Assembly: GCF_900182935.1 (NCBI RefSeq)
Contig: NZ_FXUE01000005.1
Span: 62,001 to 126,000, forward strand
DNA length: 64,000 nucleotides
Direction of reading: 5' to 3'
Origin: Fibrobacter sp. UWB10
Lineage (GTDB): Bacteria > Fibrobacterota > Fibrobacteria > Fibrobacterales > Fibrobacteraceae
The stretch's first letter is position 1; each line of letters starts with the position of its first letter. This document shows positions 4,802 through 62,514 of this stretch, one piece after another. Under the pieces are notes generated by a model. The model was not told where the DNA came from. It ran no database searches and saw nothing but the letters and a program-made list of their open reading frames with translations. The position numbers and the translations under genes were made by a program.

Positions 4802-4834
4802 CTGCAATATAGATTTTTCAAAGAGAAAAGGAGA

Positions 4835-4909
4835 TGCCGCATCGAGTGCGGCAAGACAATTTGGGGTCTTAGGGGCGAAGCCCCTAGGCGAGGGGGTAGC
4901 GTAAGACCC
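4835..4909 (+). repeat. Structured palindromic repeat, copy 1 (REP-like)
   Basis: A hairpin TGCCGCA-N5-TGCGGCA (4835-4853) is followed by a two-stem element. The outer stem is GGGTCTTA (4864-4871) with TAAGACCC (4902-4909). The inner stem is GGGGC-GAA-GCCCC (4872-4884), followed by the unpaired block TAGGCGAGGGGGTAG. A second copy on the minus strand at 32457-32500 keeps the block and the pairing with compensatory changes. The rest of the gap 4518-5043 shows no other convincing gene. Confidence 0.6.
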
Positions 4910-5043
4910 GGCGTGCAGGGGCTGCAGCGAGGGGGAATCTTCCCCCATCAAACAAAGGCTTTTCTCTGTACAGTTCATAGGCTTGCGTATTAACATGCCG
5001 CGAATGTATATTCCATGCAGAATCTTTATTTATTGGAGACAGC

Positions 5044-5214
5044 ATGAGCAAAGTCATTAAAAATTTGCTGATAGACCCAGAATTATTAGCCCAGGCAACA
5101 CCGATACTCGAAGGGCTAGGGCTTACAGTGCCGCAGGCGCTTACCATATTTCTGCGGCAAATTGTATTGCGACGCGGGTTACCTTTCGAAGTAAAAGTTC
5201 CGAAAGTCCCCTAA
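5044..5214 (+). CDS. Small RelB/DinJ-like antitoxin, apparently orphan
   Basis: A 56-residue protein starting at an ATG with GGAG seven bases upstream. The core LTVPQALTIFLRQIVLRRGLPFEV matches the ribbon-helix-helix pattern of RelB/DinJ antitoxins (a strand, then S/T..A...FLRQ.., ending in G.PFE). Such proteins bind DNA as dimers and neutralise a RelE/YafQ-type ribonuclease, usually encoded immediately downstream. Here the next 100 bases hold no toxin-sized frame and the GH9 gene follows. The gene is complete, so this may be the surviving half of a toxin-antitoxin pair or a solitary regulator. Family assignment is from motif only. Confidence 0.7.
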   Translation: MSKVIKNLLIDPELLAQATPILEGLGLTVPQALTIFLRQIVLRRGLPFEVKVPKVP

Positions 5215-31422: not shown

Positions 31423-32202
31423 CTAGGGCTTCTTGCCCAAGACTCCAATGCACAACTGCGTGTAGTGCATAAGCGAATTGTTTTCGAGAGAATCAAGAAT
31501 CTTGTCCTTGACCTTCTGGTAAGCAGAACCCTGCAGCGGATACTTCGGCAGTTCTACGCCCACCTTGAAGCCCACTTCGCGCACAATGCGGTAGAACAGG
31601 TTCGGGCGCATCCAGTCGCCATAATCGTAAACGCATTCAAAGCCCGCATCGGCCATAAGCTTCTTGAGCTGCGGCATGGTGAACTGCTTTTCCCAACCAG
31701 CAAACCACTTGTCCATCGCAATCAGAATATGCTTGATAACGGTGTACGGGTGAACGGTCTGCGGCACGTCGCACAGGCAATGGCCACCATGCTTTAGAAT
31801 GCGGTAGTTTTCCTTGATCAGCGGGAGCGAATCCTTGAAGTGTTCGGCCAGGCCCTGATGGAACACCAAGTCAAAGGTGCAATCCGGGAACGGAGCCTTG
31901 AAGGCATCGCCACGCACAAGCTTCAGGTTATCGTAAAGGTTATCCTTCGCACGAATGGCGTCCACAATTTTCAGGCTGTTTTCAGCGTAATCAAGTACGT
32001 AGACGTCGGCACCCAAGCGGGCCAGTTCGGCACTATCGCGACCGGTACCGGCACCCACTTCCAAAACCTTGAGGCCTTCGAGCTTAAAATTCTTCTTAAT
32101 CGTATTCAACACAGACGGGGACGAAGGATAAACCTTGTCCATATCGTTCTTCTGTTGCCAAAATCTGTTCCAGACAGACTGATCAGGTTCTTTAATAGAC
32201 AT
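31423..32202 (-). CDS. SAM-dependent methyltransferase, class I
   Basis: A 259-residue soluble protein with SAM motif I LEVGAGTGRDSAELA (near residue 47), an acidic VYVLDYAENSL strand end, and FDLVFHQGLAEHF as motif IV. It belongs to the broad Methyltransf_11 type. It is the first gene of the operon with the GT4 enzyme and flippase-like protein, so a sugar or lipid-linked glycan is a reasonable but unproven acceptor. The ATG is at 32202. The long non-coding block to its left side upstream (32203-32886) contains a palindromic repeat on the same strand. Confidence 0.85.
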   Translation of the reverse strand: MSIKEPDQSVWNRFWQQKNDMDKVYPSSPSVLNTIKKNFKLEGLKVLEVGAGTGRDSAELARLGADVYVLDYAENSLKIVDAIRAKDNLYDNLKLVRGDAFKAPFPDCTFDLVFHQGLAEHFKDSLPLIKENYRILKHGGHCLCDVPQTVHPYTVIKHILIAMDKWFAGWEKQFTMPQLKKLMADAGFECVYDYGDWMRPNLFYRIVREVGFKVGVELPKYPLQGSAYQKVKDKILDSLENNSLMHYTQLCIGVLGKKP

Positions 32203-32700
32203 AGCGTGTAAAATATACTAATTCGGAATTCAAAATTTGGAATTCAATTTTTGCCGTGTGGCAACATTACATTTTTTTTGTTAGAAATAGAGCCGAACGG
32301 TCTGTAAAGGGGTAGGTATCCCCCTGGTGCAAGCCATGGCAATCGCCAAACTATGGCCGCCGCGATGTTTTTACCCGCTCACTACCACGGAAAAACCCAT
32401 GAATCGTTCGCTTGCTAAAAACATTCGCTCTGGCCATCAGCAATTTCAAGCGCCATGTCTTTTACCACCCCCTCGCCTAAGGGCTTTGCCCTTAAAAACC
32501 CATACAAGGCGAATGCCGCAACAATCGTGCTTGCACGAATTCCGAAGCTCTAAACGCGCTATGTCCGCGGGCTTTTCCGACCAGGCGCAAGCGCCGCGCC
32601 GACTACGAGATTTGTAACGAACGAGCCCCGGTCCCCTGAACGTGTTCAGGGCCCGGCTAGCGAGTGAGAGCAAATCTCATAAGGAGGCGCCAGTCCCAAC
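32203..32700. other. Non-coding palindromic block upstream of the sigma factor gene
   Basis: No convincing gene. It contains several small hairpins: the structured repeat copy 2 (32457-32500), CGTGC-TT-GCACG, GGCGC-AA-GCGCC (also seen before nth), and CCCTGAAC-GT-GTTCAGGG (32634-32651) inside a GCC...GGC context. The density of hairpins suggests either decayed palindromic repeats or an unrecognised structured RNA. I found no match to RNase P, tmRNA or SRP motifs by eye. Confidence 0.5.
32457..32500 (-). repeat. Structured palindromic repeat, copy 2 (REP-like)
   Basis: On the minus strand: outer GGTTTTTA, inner AAGGGC-AAA-GCCCTT, the block TAGGCGAGGGGGTGG, then TAAAAGAC. It aligns with copy 1 at 4864-4909. 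Inner-stem G-C pairs are replaced by A-T pairs and the outer stem stays paired with wobble, while the block is conserved. Confidence 0.65.
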
Positions 32701-32886: not shown

Positions 32887-33699
32887 ATGCATATTGATTC
32901 TACTGATACTACTCTAAAACGTTACCTCGAAGATATTAGACGCACAGCTCCCCTCTCTCGTGAAGAAGAGCAGATTCTGTTCCAGAAAGCTAAAGAAGGC
33001 GACAAAATCGCCCGTAAAAAGCTTATTTCTGCAAACATGCGTTTCGTTTTGAAAGTTGCAATTCAATACCGTGGTTGCCCGATTCCGCTGCCGGACTTGG
33101 TGAGCGAAGGCGCTATGGGTCTTGTACGTGCTATCGAATCCTTTGAACATACTCGTGGTCTTAAGTTCATTAGTTACGGCGTGTGGTGGATTAAGGCTTA
33201 CATTACCCGTGCCATTAACGAACAAGGTAACTTGATTCGCTTGCCGGCTAACCAGCACTTGCGCGTGCGTAAGGCTTTGCACGAACAGAGCCGCGGTAAG
33301 GAAATCAACGAAGAAATCCGCGAACTTATCCAGATCGGTCAGCGCGGTGTTTCGTTCGACAGCCCGCTCAAGGCAGACTCTAAGGCAACCTATGCCGAAG
33401 TGCTCCCCGATGGCACCGCAACGAACCCGGAAAACGAATCTGAAATCCAGAGCGTCGAAGCTTTGGCTCGTGACCTCATGGAACAGCTTCCGGAACGCGA
33501 AGCTAAGGTGATTACCGGTATCTTCGGTATCAACCAAGAAGCTCCGCAGACACTTCGCGAAGTGGGCGAATCCATGAACATCTCTCACGAACGTGTCCGT
33601 CAGTTGCGCGACCAGGCTCTCCGCCGTATCCGCAAGTACAACAGCAAGGAATTCCTCCAAGATAAGAAGGACGCCTTTTTGGCAGCAATCAACAAATAG
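32887..33699 (+). CDS. Sigma-70 family RNA polymerase sigma factor (short RpoD/RpoS-like)
   Basis: A 270-residue sigma factor lacking region 1.1. Region 1.2 (LKRYLEDIRRTAPLSREEEQILF), region 2 with RFVLKVAIQYRG and GLKFISYGVWWIKAYITRAI, region 3 (RLPANQHLRVRKALHEQ) and region 4 with the helix-turn-helix LREVGESMNISHERVRQLRDQALRRIRKY are all present. This size is seen for primary sigma factors in Bacteroidetes and for group 2 (RpoS-like) factors elsewhere, so primary or alternative status is open. The upstream sigma-54-type promoter argues for regulated, perhaps stress- or nutrient-responsive, expression. A terminator follows. ATG at 32887. Confidence 0.92.
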   Translation: MHIDSTDTTLKRYLEDIRRTAPLSREEEQILFQKAKEGDKIARKKLISANMRFVLKVAIQYRGCPIPLPDLVSEGAMGLVRAIESFEHTRGLKFISYGVWWIKAYITRAINEQGNLIRLPANQHLRVRKALHEQSRGKEINEEIRELIQIGQRGVSFDSPLKADSKATYAEVLPDGTATNPENESEIQSVEALARDLMEQLPEREAKVITGIFGINQEAPQTLREVGESMNISHERVRQLRDQALRRIRKYNSKEFLQDKKDAFLAAINK

Positions 33700-60653: not shown

Positions 60654-62514
60654 CTTCCTGGCTCTTGACTTCGGCCTGCTTTTCTTCGGGCGCCTTGTTC
60701 AAACCTTCATAATACTGTGCAGACAGCTTTTCCACATGAAGTTGGCTGCTCTTGACGCGCTTGCGCAAGCGTTCCAAATCCTGATCCGTAATGGTCAAGC
60801 GGTTGTTCATGAGCGAAGCCGCTTTTTTGCCCCAAGGGGTTTGACCATACTTGTCGCGAAGGAGCTTGTAAGTGACCATGGTGCTGTCGATACGTTCCGG
60901 ATTCATCTGGAAGTAAATCGCCTTCATGTAAAGGGCCTGAATGCCAGCCTGCGTTTCGGGGAATTCCTGATACAGGCTATCGAAACGCGTGAATGCACGG
61001 GCATAAGCCGAATCGACCAAATCCATTTGATCCAAGGGCATTTCGGTAGCGATTGTCCAGAGACTTTCGGCCACCATGTACTTTTCCTTGGCCATATCTT
61101 CGCGAGTCTTTAAAGTCACACGCATACCCAAGTTCACTTGAGCCTGCTTTGCGTATTCCGTTTCCGGATACTTTTCCATGATTTGCTTGTAGATTTCTTC
61201 GGCGCCATCGGGGTCATGCATGTATTCGTCGAAAATGAACGCCTTTGCATAGAGGGCGCGCAAAGACTTTGCGCTGTCGCCCGATTCAATCACCGTATTC
61301 AAGCGAGCAACGGCACTATCGACTTCGTCGAGCTTGAACAAGAACAGTTCGGCAATCAGGAATTCAGACTTGAAGAAATTGTCGACATTCGGAATGGAAT
61401 CCTTGCGGGCACTATCGTTCTTGGTACGCATGGCCACCAAGCGCTTAAGGGCATCGCGACGGTCGCGGCTTTCCTGGCCCCATTTGCTGATGGTGCGAGA
61501 AATAAAGCTACTGTCGTAATAAACGATTGCCTTGTCGTAATCAATACGCTTGTGCTGTTCGTAATCGCCCAAGCAGAAATAACTACGCGACGCATGTTCA
61601 GAGCGCGGGTATTCCGTATTCACCTTCTGCAAAATGACAATTGCATCGGCATGACGTTCACCCAACATGGTCAGTTCGCCAATGCGAACCAGGTATTCCG
61701 GCTGTTTGGTTTCATATTCCGGATTCTTGTAGAGTTCCTTGTATTCGTCGGCGGCCTGCAGGTATTCCTTGCGGTTAGCCAAGCATTCTGCAGCCTGCTC
61801 CCCCGCCGTTTGCTGTTCACGCGGGTTCAATTCCTTAATTTCTTTAGCGGTATAATGTTCGCGAGACTTGTCCCAGTTTTCTTTCTTGAAATAAAGACCC
61901 GCAAGTCTGAAATGAGCCTTACCGCGCATAAAGGGCGTACCTGCGGTATCGGCCAAGACCGCTTCCAAAGAGGCAATTGCCTGGTCCGGGAATTCAGCCT
62001 GTTCGTCGAGCAACGAAAGAAGGTTCAAGCCCTGGAAGTAATACGGGTGATCCTTAGAAGCAATTACCGGTTCCAAGGCGAAACGGCTAATGTTATATTC
62101 GTGATTGCGATAAAGGCAATAAGCACGCTGGTATTCGACCGCCTGCATAGAATCGTGGTCGGCAAAGTAGCGTTCAAATTCGTCGTACTTGGTAATAGCC
62201 TTGCCCCATTCATGCTTATGGCGGAAAGATTCACCAATCAAGAACACTGCCTCGGCGGTACGTTTTTTGTTCTTGGGGAAACGTTCCAGCACGCGAGAGC
62301 CTTTTTCGATAATCTTGTCGTATTTCTGGCGTTCTTCGGAACCGGGCAGAGAATTTTCACTATCGGGAATGCTGTCCAAGCGAGCTTGGCGCATTTCTCC
62401 GGCCTGTTCATCCAGGCGTTCCGCATTGAACATATGGTTCAAGTAAGCACAGCAAGTACACCCCTCGAACACGAGGGCGAGCATTACAAGTGCCATGTAG
62501 CGGATACGTAGCAT
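60607..62514 (-). CDS. TPR-repeat outer-membrane-type lipoprotein
   Basis: A 635-residue protein with a lipoprotein-like signal (MLRIRYMALVMLALVFEGC, cysteine at about 19, atypical -3 position). It is built almost entirely of tetratricopeptide repeats, such as ERFPKNKKRTAEAVFLIGESF, KYPETEYAKQAQVNLGM and YGQTPWGKKAASLMNN, in the style of BamD/YbgF and periplasmic scaffold proteins. It ends in a charged helix. It sits between a TPR gene cut by the window edge and rlpA, all on the minus strand, suggesting an envelope-assembly operon. Partner proteins are unknown. Confidence 0.82.
   Translation of the reverse strand: MLRIRYMALVMLALVFEGCTCCAYLNHMFNAERLDEQAGEMRQARLDSIPDSENSLPGSEERQKYDKIIEKGSRVLERFPKNKKRTAEAVFLIGESFRHKHEWGKAITKYDEFERYFADHDSMQAVEYQRAYCLYRNHEYNISRFALEPVIASKDHPYYFQGLNLLSLLDEQAEFPDQAIASLEAVLADTAGTPFMRGKAHFRLAGLYFKKENWDKSREHYTAKEIKELNPREQQTAGEQAAECLANRKEYLQAADEYKELYKNPEYETKQPEYLVRIGELTMLGERHADAIVILQKVNTEYPRSEHASRSYFCLGDYEQHKRIDYDKAIVYYDSSFISRTISKWGQESRDRRDALKRLVAMRTKNDSARKDSIPNVDNFFKSEFLIAELFLFKLDEVDSAVARLNTVIESGDSAKSLRALYAKAFIFDEYMHDPDGAEEIYKQIMEKYPETEYAKQAQVNLGMRVTLKTREDMAKEKYMVAESLWTIATEMPLDQMDLVDSAYARAFTRFDSLYQEFPETQAGIQALYMKAIYFQMNPERIDSTMVTYKLLRDKYGQTPWGKKAASLMNNRLTITDQDLERLRKRVKSSQLHVEKLSAQYYEGLNKAPEEKQAEVKSQEDEILENTYNSMYDFE

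Follow-up and report, generated by a model that had tools for sequence, protein, structure and literature searches.

A dispersed three-hairpin repeat family, possibly mobile DNA, in Fibrobacter and in Spirochaete MAGs

RESULTS

Two copies of a structured repeat in the window

The window (the whole 64,000-nt stretch of Fibrobacter sp. UWB10 DNA that was analyzed, positions 62,001 to 126,000 of contig NZ_FXUE01000005.1) holds two copies of a repeat, one followed by a gene for a RelB-type antitoxin and the other lying between a methyltransferase gene and a divergent gene for an RpoD-like sigma factor (Table 1). Both had been noticed in the initial annotation, at 4864-4909 and 32457-32500, and both are real, but the extent given was too short and the number too low. 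The block that they were said to share was recovered as the 13-mer TAGGCGAGGGGGT, at 4885-4897 on the plus strand and 32467-32479 on the minus strand. It occurs seven times in the UWB10 genome, compared to none for a reversed control pattern. Alignment of the seven sites showed that six share GGGGTTTT on the 5′ side, hairpin 1, GGCGAGGGGGT, a variable stretch, AGGGGGAnnCTTCCCCC, and mostly T's. The seventh is minus-strand copy 2 of the window, whose truncation is only apparent; past a nested repeat, it resumes with CACCAGGGGGATACCTACCCCTTTA.

A covariance model (R1) was built from six copies, which it recovers by construction. Copy 1 is one of the six, and its match had an E value of 9.8e-20 in a 240-kb search and 1.4e-18 genome-wide (model E values are rough, the calibration having been short). 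Copy 2 was matched in two parts on the same strand, 32416-32501 (47.7 bits) and 32305-32398 (20.8 bits, E 0.0086). The near-terminal hairpin of copy 1 is GGGGGAATCTTCCCCC. By eye, hairpin 2 of two other UWB10 copies (L133 and L143) contains the same ∼95-nt palindromic repeat as copy 2, and in genome G036, hairpin 2 of the orthologous copy keeps similar outer arms around another insert. On the 5′ side of copy 2, at 32606-32678, there is also a long imperfect palindrome (AGATTTG..CTAGCCGGGCCCTGAACACGTTCAGGGGACCGGGGCTCG..CAAATCT), which by eye is present in G060 too and absent from G003 and G009.

Table 1. Positions of the two element copies, their parts, and neighboring genes in the window
Feature	Position	Strand	Basis
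Element copy 1, whole, 88 nt	4863-4950	+	Model R1, 94.2 bits
Hairpin 1 of copy 1, TAGGGGC-GAA-GCCCCTA (inner stem of the initial annotation)	4870-4886	+	Sequence; pair counts
Core GGCGAGGGGG joining hairpins 1 and 2, copy 1	4887-4896	+	Alignments
Hairpin 2 of copy 1, variable; closing T-A pair, A.G mismatch, internal loops	4897-4930	+	Pair counts; folding
Hairpin 3 of copy 1, GGGGGA-ATCT-TCCCCC (3′ module)	4931-4946	+	Sequence; 3′ module pattern
RelB-type antitoxin gene, 3′ neighbor of copy 1	5044-5214	+	Pfam RelB PF04221, E 2.2e-9
Methyltransferase gene, 3′ neighbor of copy 2	31423-32202	-	Pfam Methyltransf_11, E 1.1e-19
Element copy 2, whole, ∼196 nt including the nested repeat in hairpin 2	32306-32501	-	Model R1; sequence
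Hairpin 3 of copy 2, GGGGGATACCTACCCC	32309-32324	-	Sequence
Hairpin 2 of copy 2, enlarged by nested repeat	32325-32467	-	Outer arms by eye
Nested palindromic repeat in hairpin 2 of copy 2 (approximate limits)	32350-32440	-	By eye; also in L133, L143
Core GGCGAGGGGG of copy 2	32468-32477	-	Sequence; 13-mer match
Hairpin 1 of copy 2, TAAGGGC-AAA-GCCCTTA	32478-32494	-	Sequence
Divergent neighbor of copy 2, gene for an RpoD-like sigma factor (assigned by eye)	32887-33699	+	ORF; match in 38/38 genus genomes

Architecture of the element

Read from 5′ to 3′, the element consists of GGGGTTTT, hairpin 1, GGCGAGGGGGT, a variable hairpin 2, hairpin 3 (GGGGGAnnCTTCCCCC), and TTY. Its 5′ module (GGGGTTTT, hairpin 1, and GGCGAGGGGG) and its 3′ module (hairpin 3, GGGGGAnnCTTCCCCC-TTY) are fixed, and hairpin 2 between them varies. 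The length was 74 to 97 nt in 135 of 153 distinct copies, with a full range of 64 to 138 nt. The ends are sharp, the information content of 87 copies falling below 0.3 bit outside GGGG and CCCCC-TTY. These ends are mutually complementary over just 4 to 5 bases, and among the same 87 copies they carry neither long terminal inverted repeats nor a GTAG or CGTC tag. Integron attC sites have RYYYAAC and GTTRRRY ends and are accompanied by an integrase; these motifs are likewise absent from the conserved ends (87 copies).

Hairpin 2 measured 23 to 77 nt in 132 copies and is longer where nested repeats sit inside it. It has a T-A closing pair, next to which 43 of 87 copies had the two bases G-C and 38 had A.G. 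Its interior folded better than shuffled sequence (mean z of -1.94 for the 132 of 153 copies cut out by pattern), the MFE structure closed both of its ends in 105 of the 132, and a 3x3 internal loop recurred among the folds shown. The outer stem that had been described as staying paired (GGGTCT/AGACCC in copy 1) is not kept family-wide: runs of at least 6 pairs were found at this position in 42 of 132 copies, compared to a shuffled mean of 35.8 and a maximum of 46. Hairpin 3 is GC-rich and near-invariant, with 98.5% of cells paired in 58 distinct copies, and is followed by TTY. At least four consecutive T's come after it in 27 of 153 copies and at least six T's within 8 nt in 29 of 153, tracts too short for a strong intrinsic terminator, which was rejected as a candidate.

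The two modules were also searched for separately. The 3′ module pattern occurred exactly 21 times in the UWB10 genome, compared to 0 for the control; 19 of these lie within model matches (some of them weak), and the remaining two correspond to the reverse strand of a match and to a partial match. At 15 places in the stretches scanned, the 5′ module had no 3′ partner within 75 nt; a partner lay 83 to 208 nt off in six cases and was absent under the strict pattern in nine. No autonomous long version carrying a gene in hairpin 2 was seen. Direct repeats of 4 to 8 bp flanking 152 copies were not in excess of shuffles at any length (15 compared to 15.2 for 4 bp and 7 compared to 4.5 for 5 bp; the 4 repeats of 6 bp, compared to 1.4, were equaled in 16 of 300 shuffles; none of 7 or 8 bp), so that no target-site duplication was detected.

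Family size and covariation

The covariance search that the initial annotation had proposed gave many further copies and covarying pairs. Sixty genomes, UWB10 included, were searched at a cutoff of E ≤ 0.1, and 49 matched: 37 of 37 of the genus and 12 of 23 outside it. In UWB10, the model gave 63 matches at E ≤ 10, and 42 of these had E < 1e-3. Each of the 36 other genomes of the genus that were searched was positive, and copies per genome in the genus ranged from 3 to 65.

When 58 distinct copies were aligned, standard pairs filled 93.2% of the pair cells, and 11 of 17 pairs had changed on both sides. Double-change cells numbered 81, compared to a shuffled mean of 17.5, and the covariation score was 0.261, compared to 0.084 for shuffled and at most 0.077 for slid controls; the slid controls weigh more because relatedness of the copies inflates the shuffle comparison, and the alignments (A4 to A7), being fitted to the model, favor its structure. 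A good example is the inner stem, hairpin 1. As first described for the two window copies, its changes are compensatory (TAGGGGC/GCCCCTA compared to TAAGGGC/GCCCTTA, G-C becoming A-T on both sides), and in the 58 copies six of its seven pairs had double-sided changes, with 96.5% of cells paired. Selection on the secondary structure had been proposed from this stem and the outer one. Either selection on the fold or faithful copying of it in a dispersed repeat is supported, but membership in the REP or RAYT-mobilized elements, also suggested then, is not.

Half-changed pairs in 153 distinct copies were G-U in 21 cases and A-C in 7 (P = 0.013), excluding the misregistered pair hp1-2. That pair adds 11 G-U, for a total of 32 among roughly 2,500 pair cells. 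The excess of G-U over A-C is a hint that folding involves the strand as written, but G-U pairs are too rare to compel an RNA.

Placement relative to genes

Gene orientation was tabulated for those distinct Fibrobacter copies that had a called gene on each side. Of 110 rows, 12 G060 rows shared in place, 4 duplicates, and 33 rows lacking a call on one flank or both were removed, leaving 61. Twenty-five were divergent, 21 sense, 11 antisense, and 4 convergent; sense did not significantly exceed antisense (P = 0.11). Genes were called with a simple ORF scorer, which gave no call on one side for 9 of 37 UWB10 copies, 9 of 29 from relatives, 11 of 25 from G060, 13 of 25 from Treponema, and 8 of 21 others; seven copies overlap an ORF call. 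Distances in divergent pairs showed no asymmetry (P = 0.18, in an earlier set of 64 Fibrobacter copies that included three duplicates).

Many copies lie 20 to 200 nt before the starts of mdh, glyA, aspS, dnaK, and other genes (named by eye from translations). Four of the antisense copies sit in tight operons, no more than 48 nt from either gene. Five distinct copies start 2 to 4 nt past a stop codon, one of them ending 20 nt before the next start, and such abutment involves either strand. The antisense and convergent placements ruled out a leader or riboswitch as a general reading.

Differences between and within species

At the argC site, read in 30 genomes, G000, G019, and G027 have the element, and the same-species G060 lacks it; G018 has an element between the same two genes (locus L090). 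Spacers upstream of argC at six loci (L241, L242, L246, L247, L255, and L256) contain imperfect inverted repeats of short near-heptamer units of the TTAGTGG/CCACTAA and TAGAGAC/CCTAACC types, a second kind of repeat at the same site in several species. At the rpoD site of window copy 2, where spacer sequences were inspected for 11 of 30 loci, G000, G060, and G036 have an intact element (that of G036 with its different nested repeat), G029 and G019 have what look by eye like deletion remnants, and G003 and G009, for example, have a short spacer without the element; three loci (L264, L272, and L273) give weak model matches (E 0.006 to 0.055).

Comparison of 22 G060 copies with G000 stretches showed a matching 3′ flank for 16 and no match on either side for 6. 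Seven of the 16 match on the 5′ side too, two of them over merely about 77 nt, and nine do not; no copy matches on the 5′ side only. Where the 3′ flank alone matches, the match ends 5′ of the element in two of the nine copies and within it in two more; in one it ends 2 nt past the element, and in the other four 41 to 140 nt 3′ of it. This 9:0 split toward change on the 5′ side, where the altered DNA often carries FISUMP lipoprotein genes, was obtained with comparison stretches picked partly for partial matches and is a lead, not a proof. At the mdh site, agreement extends from the 3′ flank through hairpins 3 and 2 and breaks off within the element; hairpin 1 and all sequence farther 5′ differ. 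Between L181 and L201, the hairpin 1 type is switched and both flanks are orthologous. In G060, a 2.5-kb insert (L207:14176-16725) carries a FISUMP gene together with a small gene and ends at an element; G000, a genome of the same species, has ∼38 nt there (L225:4466-4504). No clean insertion of a single element with an exact empty site was seen, and the changes take in neighboring repeat DNA.

FISUMP genes and other repeats nearby

Eighteen of 45 UWB10 copies (the 42 at E < 1e-3 plus the three next weakest) lie within 1.2 kb of a Fib_succ_major (FISUMP) domain, compared to 2.75 expected, a figure that uses partly approximate lengths and does not control for long repeat-rich spacers. Fourteen of the 18 are 3′ of the domain on the same strand. 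A motif scan detected no FISUMP gene in the Treponema loci. The link may therefore be peculiar to Fibrobacter and may stem from the repeat-rich DNA around FISUMP genes.

The DNA 3′ of FISUMP genes in UWB10 is, by eye, a mosaic of other dispersed palindromic repeats (for example, L127:4331-4771, L139:3429-3830, and L141:2813-3102), with CAAAGGAGATGCC..GGCATGACA, AATGCTGATGCTGACCTTCGTCAGCATGACA, and AAAGCGGAGGCGAGTGCCTGACCGCAAAGCGAACATT types. A repeat resembling the CAAAGGAGATGCC..GGCATGACA type lies just 5′ of window copy 1, at about 4820-4860. Directly 3′ of FISUMP genes in L133 and L135 is a very short ORF that starts with MSKKNIKNNKKNSTRKNYK and is preceded by a palindrome; in L133, it ends with IEALEPRLMMDA. 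Genes of the PD-(D/E)XK transposase family and YhgA-like genes (Pfam) adjoin FISUMP-element units at L131:5161-6102 and L127:2118-3062. The hairpin 2 loops of L171, L135, L087, and L089 contain ATTGCTTCGCTACGCTCGCAATGACG and GATCCTTCGACT..CGCTCAGGATGACA, which resemble widespread CGTC-type palindromes. By eye, repeats nested in hairpin 2 look CGTC-like.

Distribution across phyla

A scan of a genome collection with the exact pattern found 36 stretches: 16 from Fibrobacter or other Fibrobacterales (some of them contigs already among the G genomes), 18 from Treponema and other Spirochaetes, one from a Myxococcales MAG, and one from an unnamed bacterium, MAG taxonomy being taken from record labels. 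The whole genomes behind 14 loci comprised nine (Treponema, Treponemataceae, or Spirochaetaceae) with 31 to 59 copies and five with 1 to 5. Five of the nine copy-rich Spirochaete MAGs are named as derived from ruminant stomach. The structure of the element is retained in the MAGs of other phyla. Because the contigs reach 192 kb and differ from Fibrobacter in base composition, contamination with Fibrobacter DNA is unlikely as a general explanation. Two Fibrobacter-labeled contigs (L287 and L316) have low G+C and a Treponema-like 4-mer composition, possibly from misbinning. Among viral contigs, none had the exact pattern, and carriage by phage was thus not detected.

Search for a mobilizing enzyme and tests against known families

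The search for a RAYT-like transposase that the initial annotation had recommended gave no link to the element. Y1_Tnp (PF01797, RAYT/IS200) was found in 11 of 38 genus genomes, and its presence did not correlate with copy number (11 compared to 26 genomes, mean of 25.3 compared to 20.1 copies, P = 0.33). It was undetected in G015, G021, G002, and G003, which have 65, 60, 47, and 35 copies at a completeness of 82, 81, 88, and 100%, respectively. Around all 17 Y1 match rows (16 stretches, 134 kb), three elements lay 1.2 to 2.4 kb off, compared to ∼0.9 expected by hand arithmetic from genome copy densities, a weak excess that decides neither way. The Y1 matches that have an element at this distance are L379 (the Y1 gene of UWB10 itself), L376, and L384. 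No element was found within 1.5 kb of 10 Y1 genes, and no Y1 gene was flanked by elements. The reverse transcriptase domain RVT_1 (PF00078) was found in 10 of 38 genus genomes and was undetected in UWB10, G015, and G021. SINE-like retroposition through such an enzyme was not supported, there being no correlation between RVT_1 and copy number (P = 0.34), a comparison that bears on present activity.

At the gathering threshold, Rfam 15 matched two tRNAs and nothing else in the window, and at E ≤ 1 it had no match at the element in 12 element-bearing loci. The REP class, with its GTAG or CGTC tag, was set aside for a 74- to 97-nt three-hairpin unit ending in GGGG and CCCCC-TTY, and the MITE class was set aside for the missing target-site duplication. 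The fixed outer modules and variable middle module are those of a BOX-like composite. The portions of the literature covered by our search, including that on BOX repeats, contained no description of a three-hairpin family, and no mention of such repeats was found in the portions covered of the S85 genome paper (PMC3079729); the family is apparently undescribed.

DISCUSSION

What the repeat might be

We consider the element, with a probability of about 0.55, to be a composite repeat of mobile DNA that is small, structure dependent, and non-autonomous and that a presumed trans-acting enzyme would mobilize. The enzyme would recognize the folded single strand, the hairpins would be kept because copies that do not fold do not get copied, and the loop of hairpin 2 may serve as a landing site for other palindromic repeats. 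This reading is favored by a large dispersed family with sharp ends, covarying hairpins, and intergenic copies in both orientations, as well as by differences within species, patchy orthologous sites, presence in MAGs of two phyla, and the lack of target-site duplication. Against it, a mobilizing enzyme was not found, Y1_Tnp and RVT_1 being undetected in most genomes and not tracking copy number, and none of the sites compared showed a lone element cleanly inserted into an exact empty site. In addition, the purine internal loops, the switch between A.G and G-C, and the excess of G-U over A-C suit RNA equally well. The element probably has no essential role in the host, although some copies may affect neighboring transcripts.

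The main rival, in line with the repeated RNA suggested as an option in the initial annotation, is a structured RNA, either a multicopy small RNA or a UTR element running from GGGG to hairpin 3 and its U's, which would bind a protein through the purine loops of hairpin 2 or act as a cis-regulator. The three covarying hairpins, the folding of hairpin 2 with both ends mostly closed and its recurrent 3x3 loop, the 21 G-U compared to 7 A-C, the G-C or A.G choice beside the closing pair, and the retention of structure in other phyla all agree with this. However, G-U pairs are rare (21, or 32 with hp1-2, of roughly 2,500 cells), the bias in gene orientation is not significant and antisense copies sit in tight operons, Rfam had no match at the element, and the copy number varies from 3 to 65 among congeners. 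On balance, we regard an RNA as rather unlikely. The element might instead be a portable intrinsic terminator or insulator, hairpin 3 and its T's stopping transcription ahead of the downstream gene. A GC-rich, near-invariant hairpin 3 with TTY and the five copies that start just past a stop codon point that way, but few copies have at least four consecutive T's, and neither hairpins 1 and 2 nor the sharp 5′ end would be accounted for; with no significant orientation bias either, a terminator seems improbable.

Two further readings concern movement of DNA. The element could be a recombination junction for gene cassettes, marking the 3′ edge of exchanged DNA that carries FISUMP or other genes. 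The clustering near FISUMP genes, mostly 3′ and on the same strand, the 16 of 22 G060 copies matched on the 3′ side with nine lacking and none having only the 5′ match, and the 2.5-kb FISUMP-plus-element insert are as expected of such a junction. Yet the edges of the matches fall 5′ of, inside, and 3′ of the element, and it is therefore not a fixed edge. Moreover, two of the seven two-sided cases match little on the 5′ side, most copies have no FISUMP neighbor and none in the Treponema loci does by motif scan, no recombinase was found, the stretches were picked partly for partial matches, and recombination between dispersed repeats would look identical. We hold this to be doubtful. A REP family mobilized by RAYT is the least probable reading of all: the copies are dispersed, palindromic, and intergenic, with three near Y1 matches compared to ∼0.9 expected, but Y1_Tnp occurs in a minority of genomes without relation to copy number, no Y1 gene is flanked by elements, and a unit of three hairpins has ends without the GTAG or CGTC tag.

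Within the mobile-repeat reading, a bolder version may be put forward as a long shot. Here a mobile system shared across phyla and directed by structure, of neither RAYT nor DDE type, would use the element as its recognition end. Its trans-acting enzyme would read the folded single strand, cut near the 3′ edge (hairpin 3-TTY), and be able to carry variable lengths of 5′ DNA, as in one-ended rolling-circle transposition. If true, one-ended carriage on the 5′ side would explain why genes such as those for FISUMP lipoproteins change on that side and the 3′ gene remains in place. A repeat with dozens of copies per genome in two gut-bacterial phyla and without an Rfam match would be the footprint of a copying activity. 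Its sharp ends, the covariance model, and the sites that differ within a species offer a handle with which to hunt for an enzyme and to trace DNA passing between Fibrobacter and Treponema, and the element accounts for part of the hypervariable intergenic DNA by FISUMP genes.

Comparison with known repeats

Three kinds of known repeats resemble the element, each in the portions of the sources covered here. MITEs are described as short, non-coding, strongly folded, and present in many copies (PMC3049150). The element shares all of this, but unlike MITEs it is GC-rich and has neither target-site duplication nor long terminal inverted repeats. REPs are described as 20- to 40-bp palindromes with a tetranucleotide tag (GTAG or CGTC), often in head-to-head pairs; those with CGTC also occur in Spirochaetes and lack a dedicated transposase, and some REPs are inserted within other palindromes (PMC3733652). 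The likeness lies in dispersed palindromes across several phyla, whereas the element is a three-hairpin unit from which the tag is absent. In BOX repeats of Streptococcus pneumoniae, fixed outer boxA and boxC enclose a variable middle boxB, stem-loops are predicted, insertion of repeat into repeat is described, and novel insertions are said to be slow (PMC3049150). Compared by description alone, the likeness is one of build, a composite with fixed outer modules and a variable middle; the difference is that the pneumococcal middle consists of tandem boxB units, whereas the element, in Fibrobacterota and Spirochaetota, has one variable hairpin. Because it shows the defining features of BOX and of REPs only in part, the element is filed separately, and it is a family of its own of the same broad kind as BOX and REPs.
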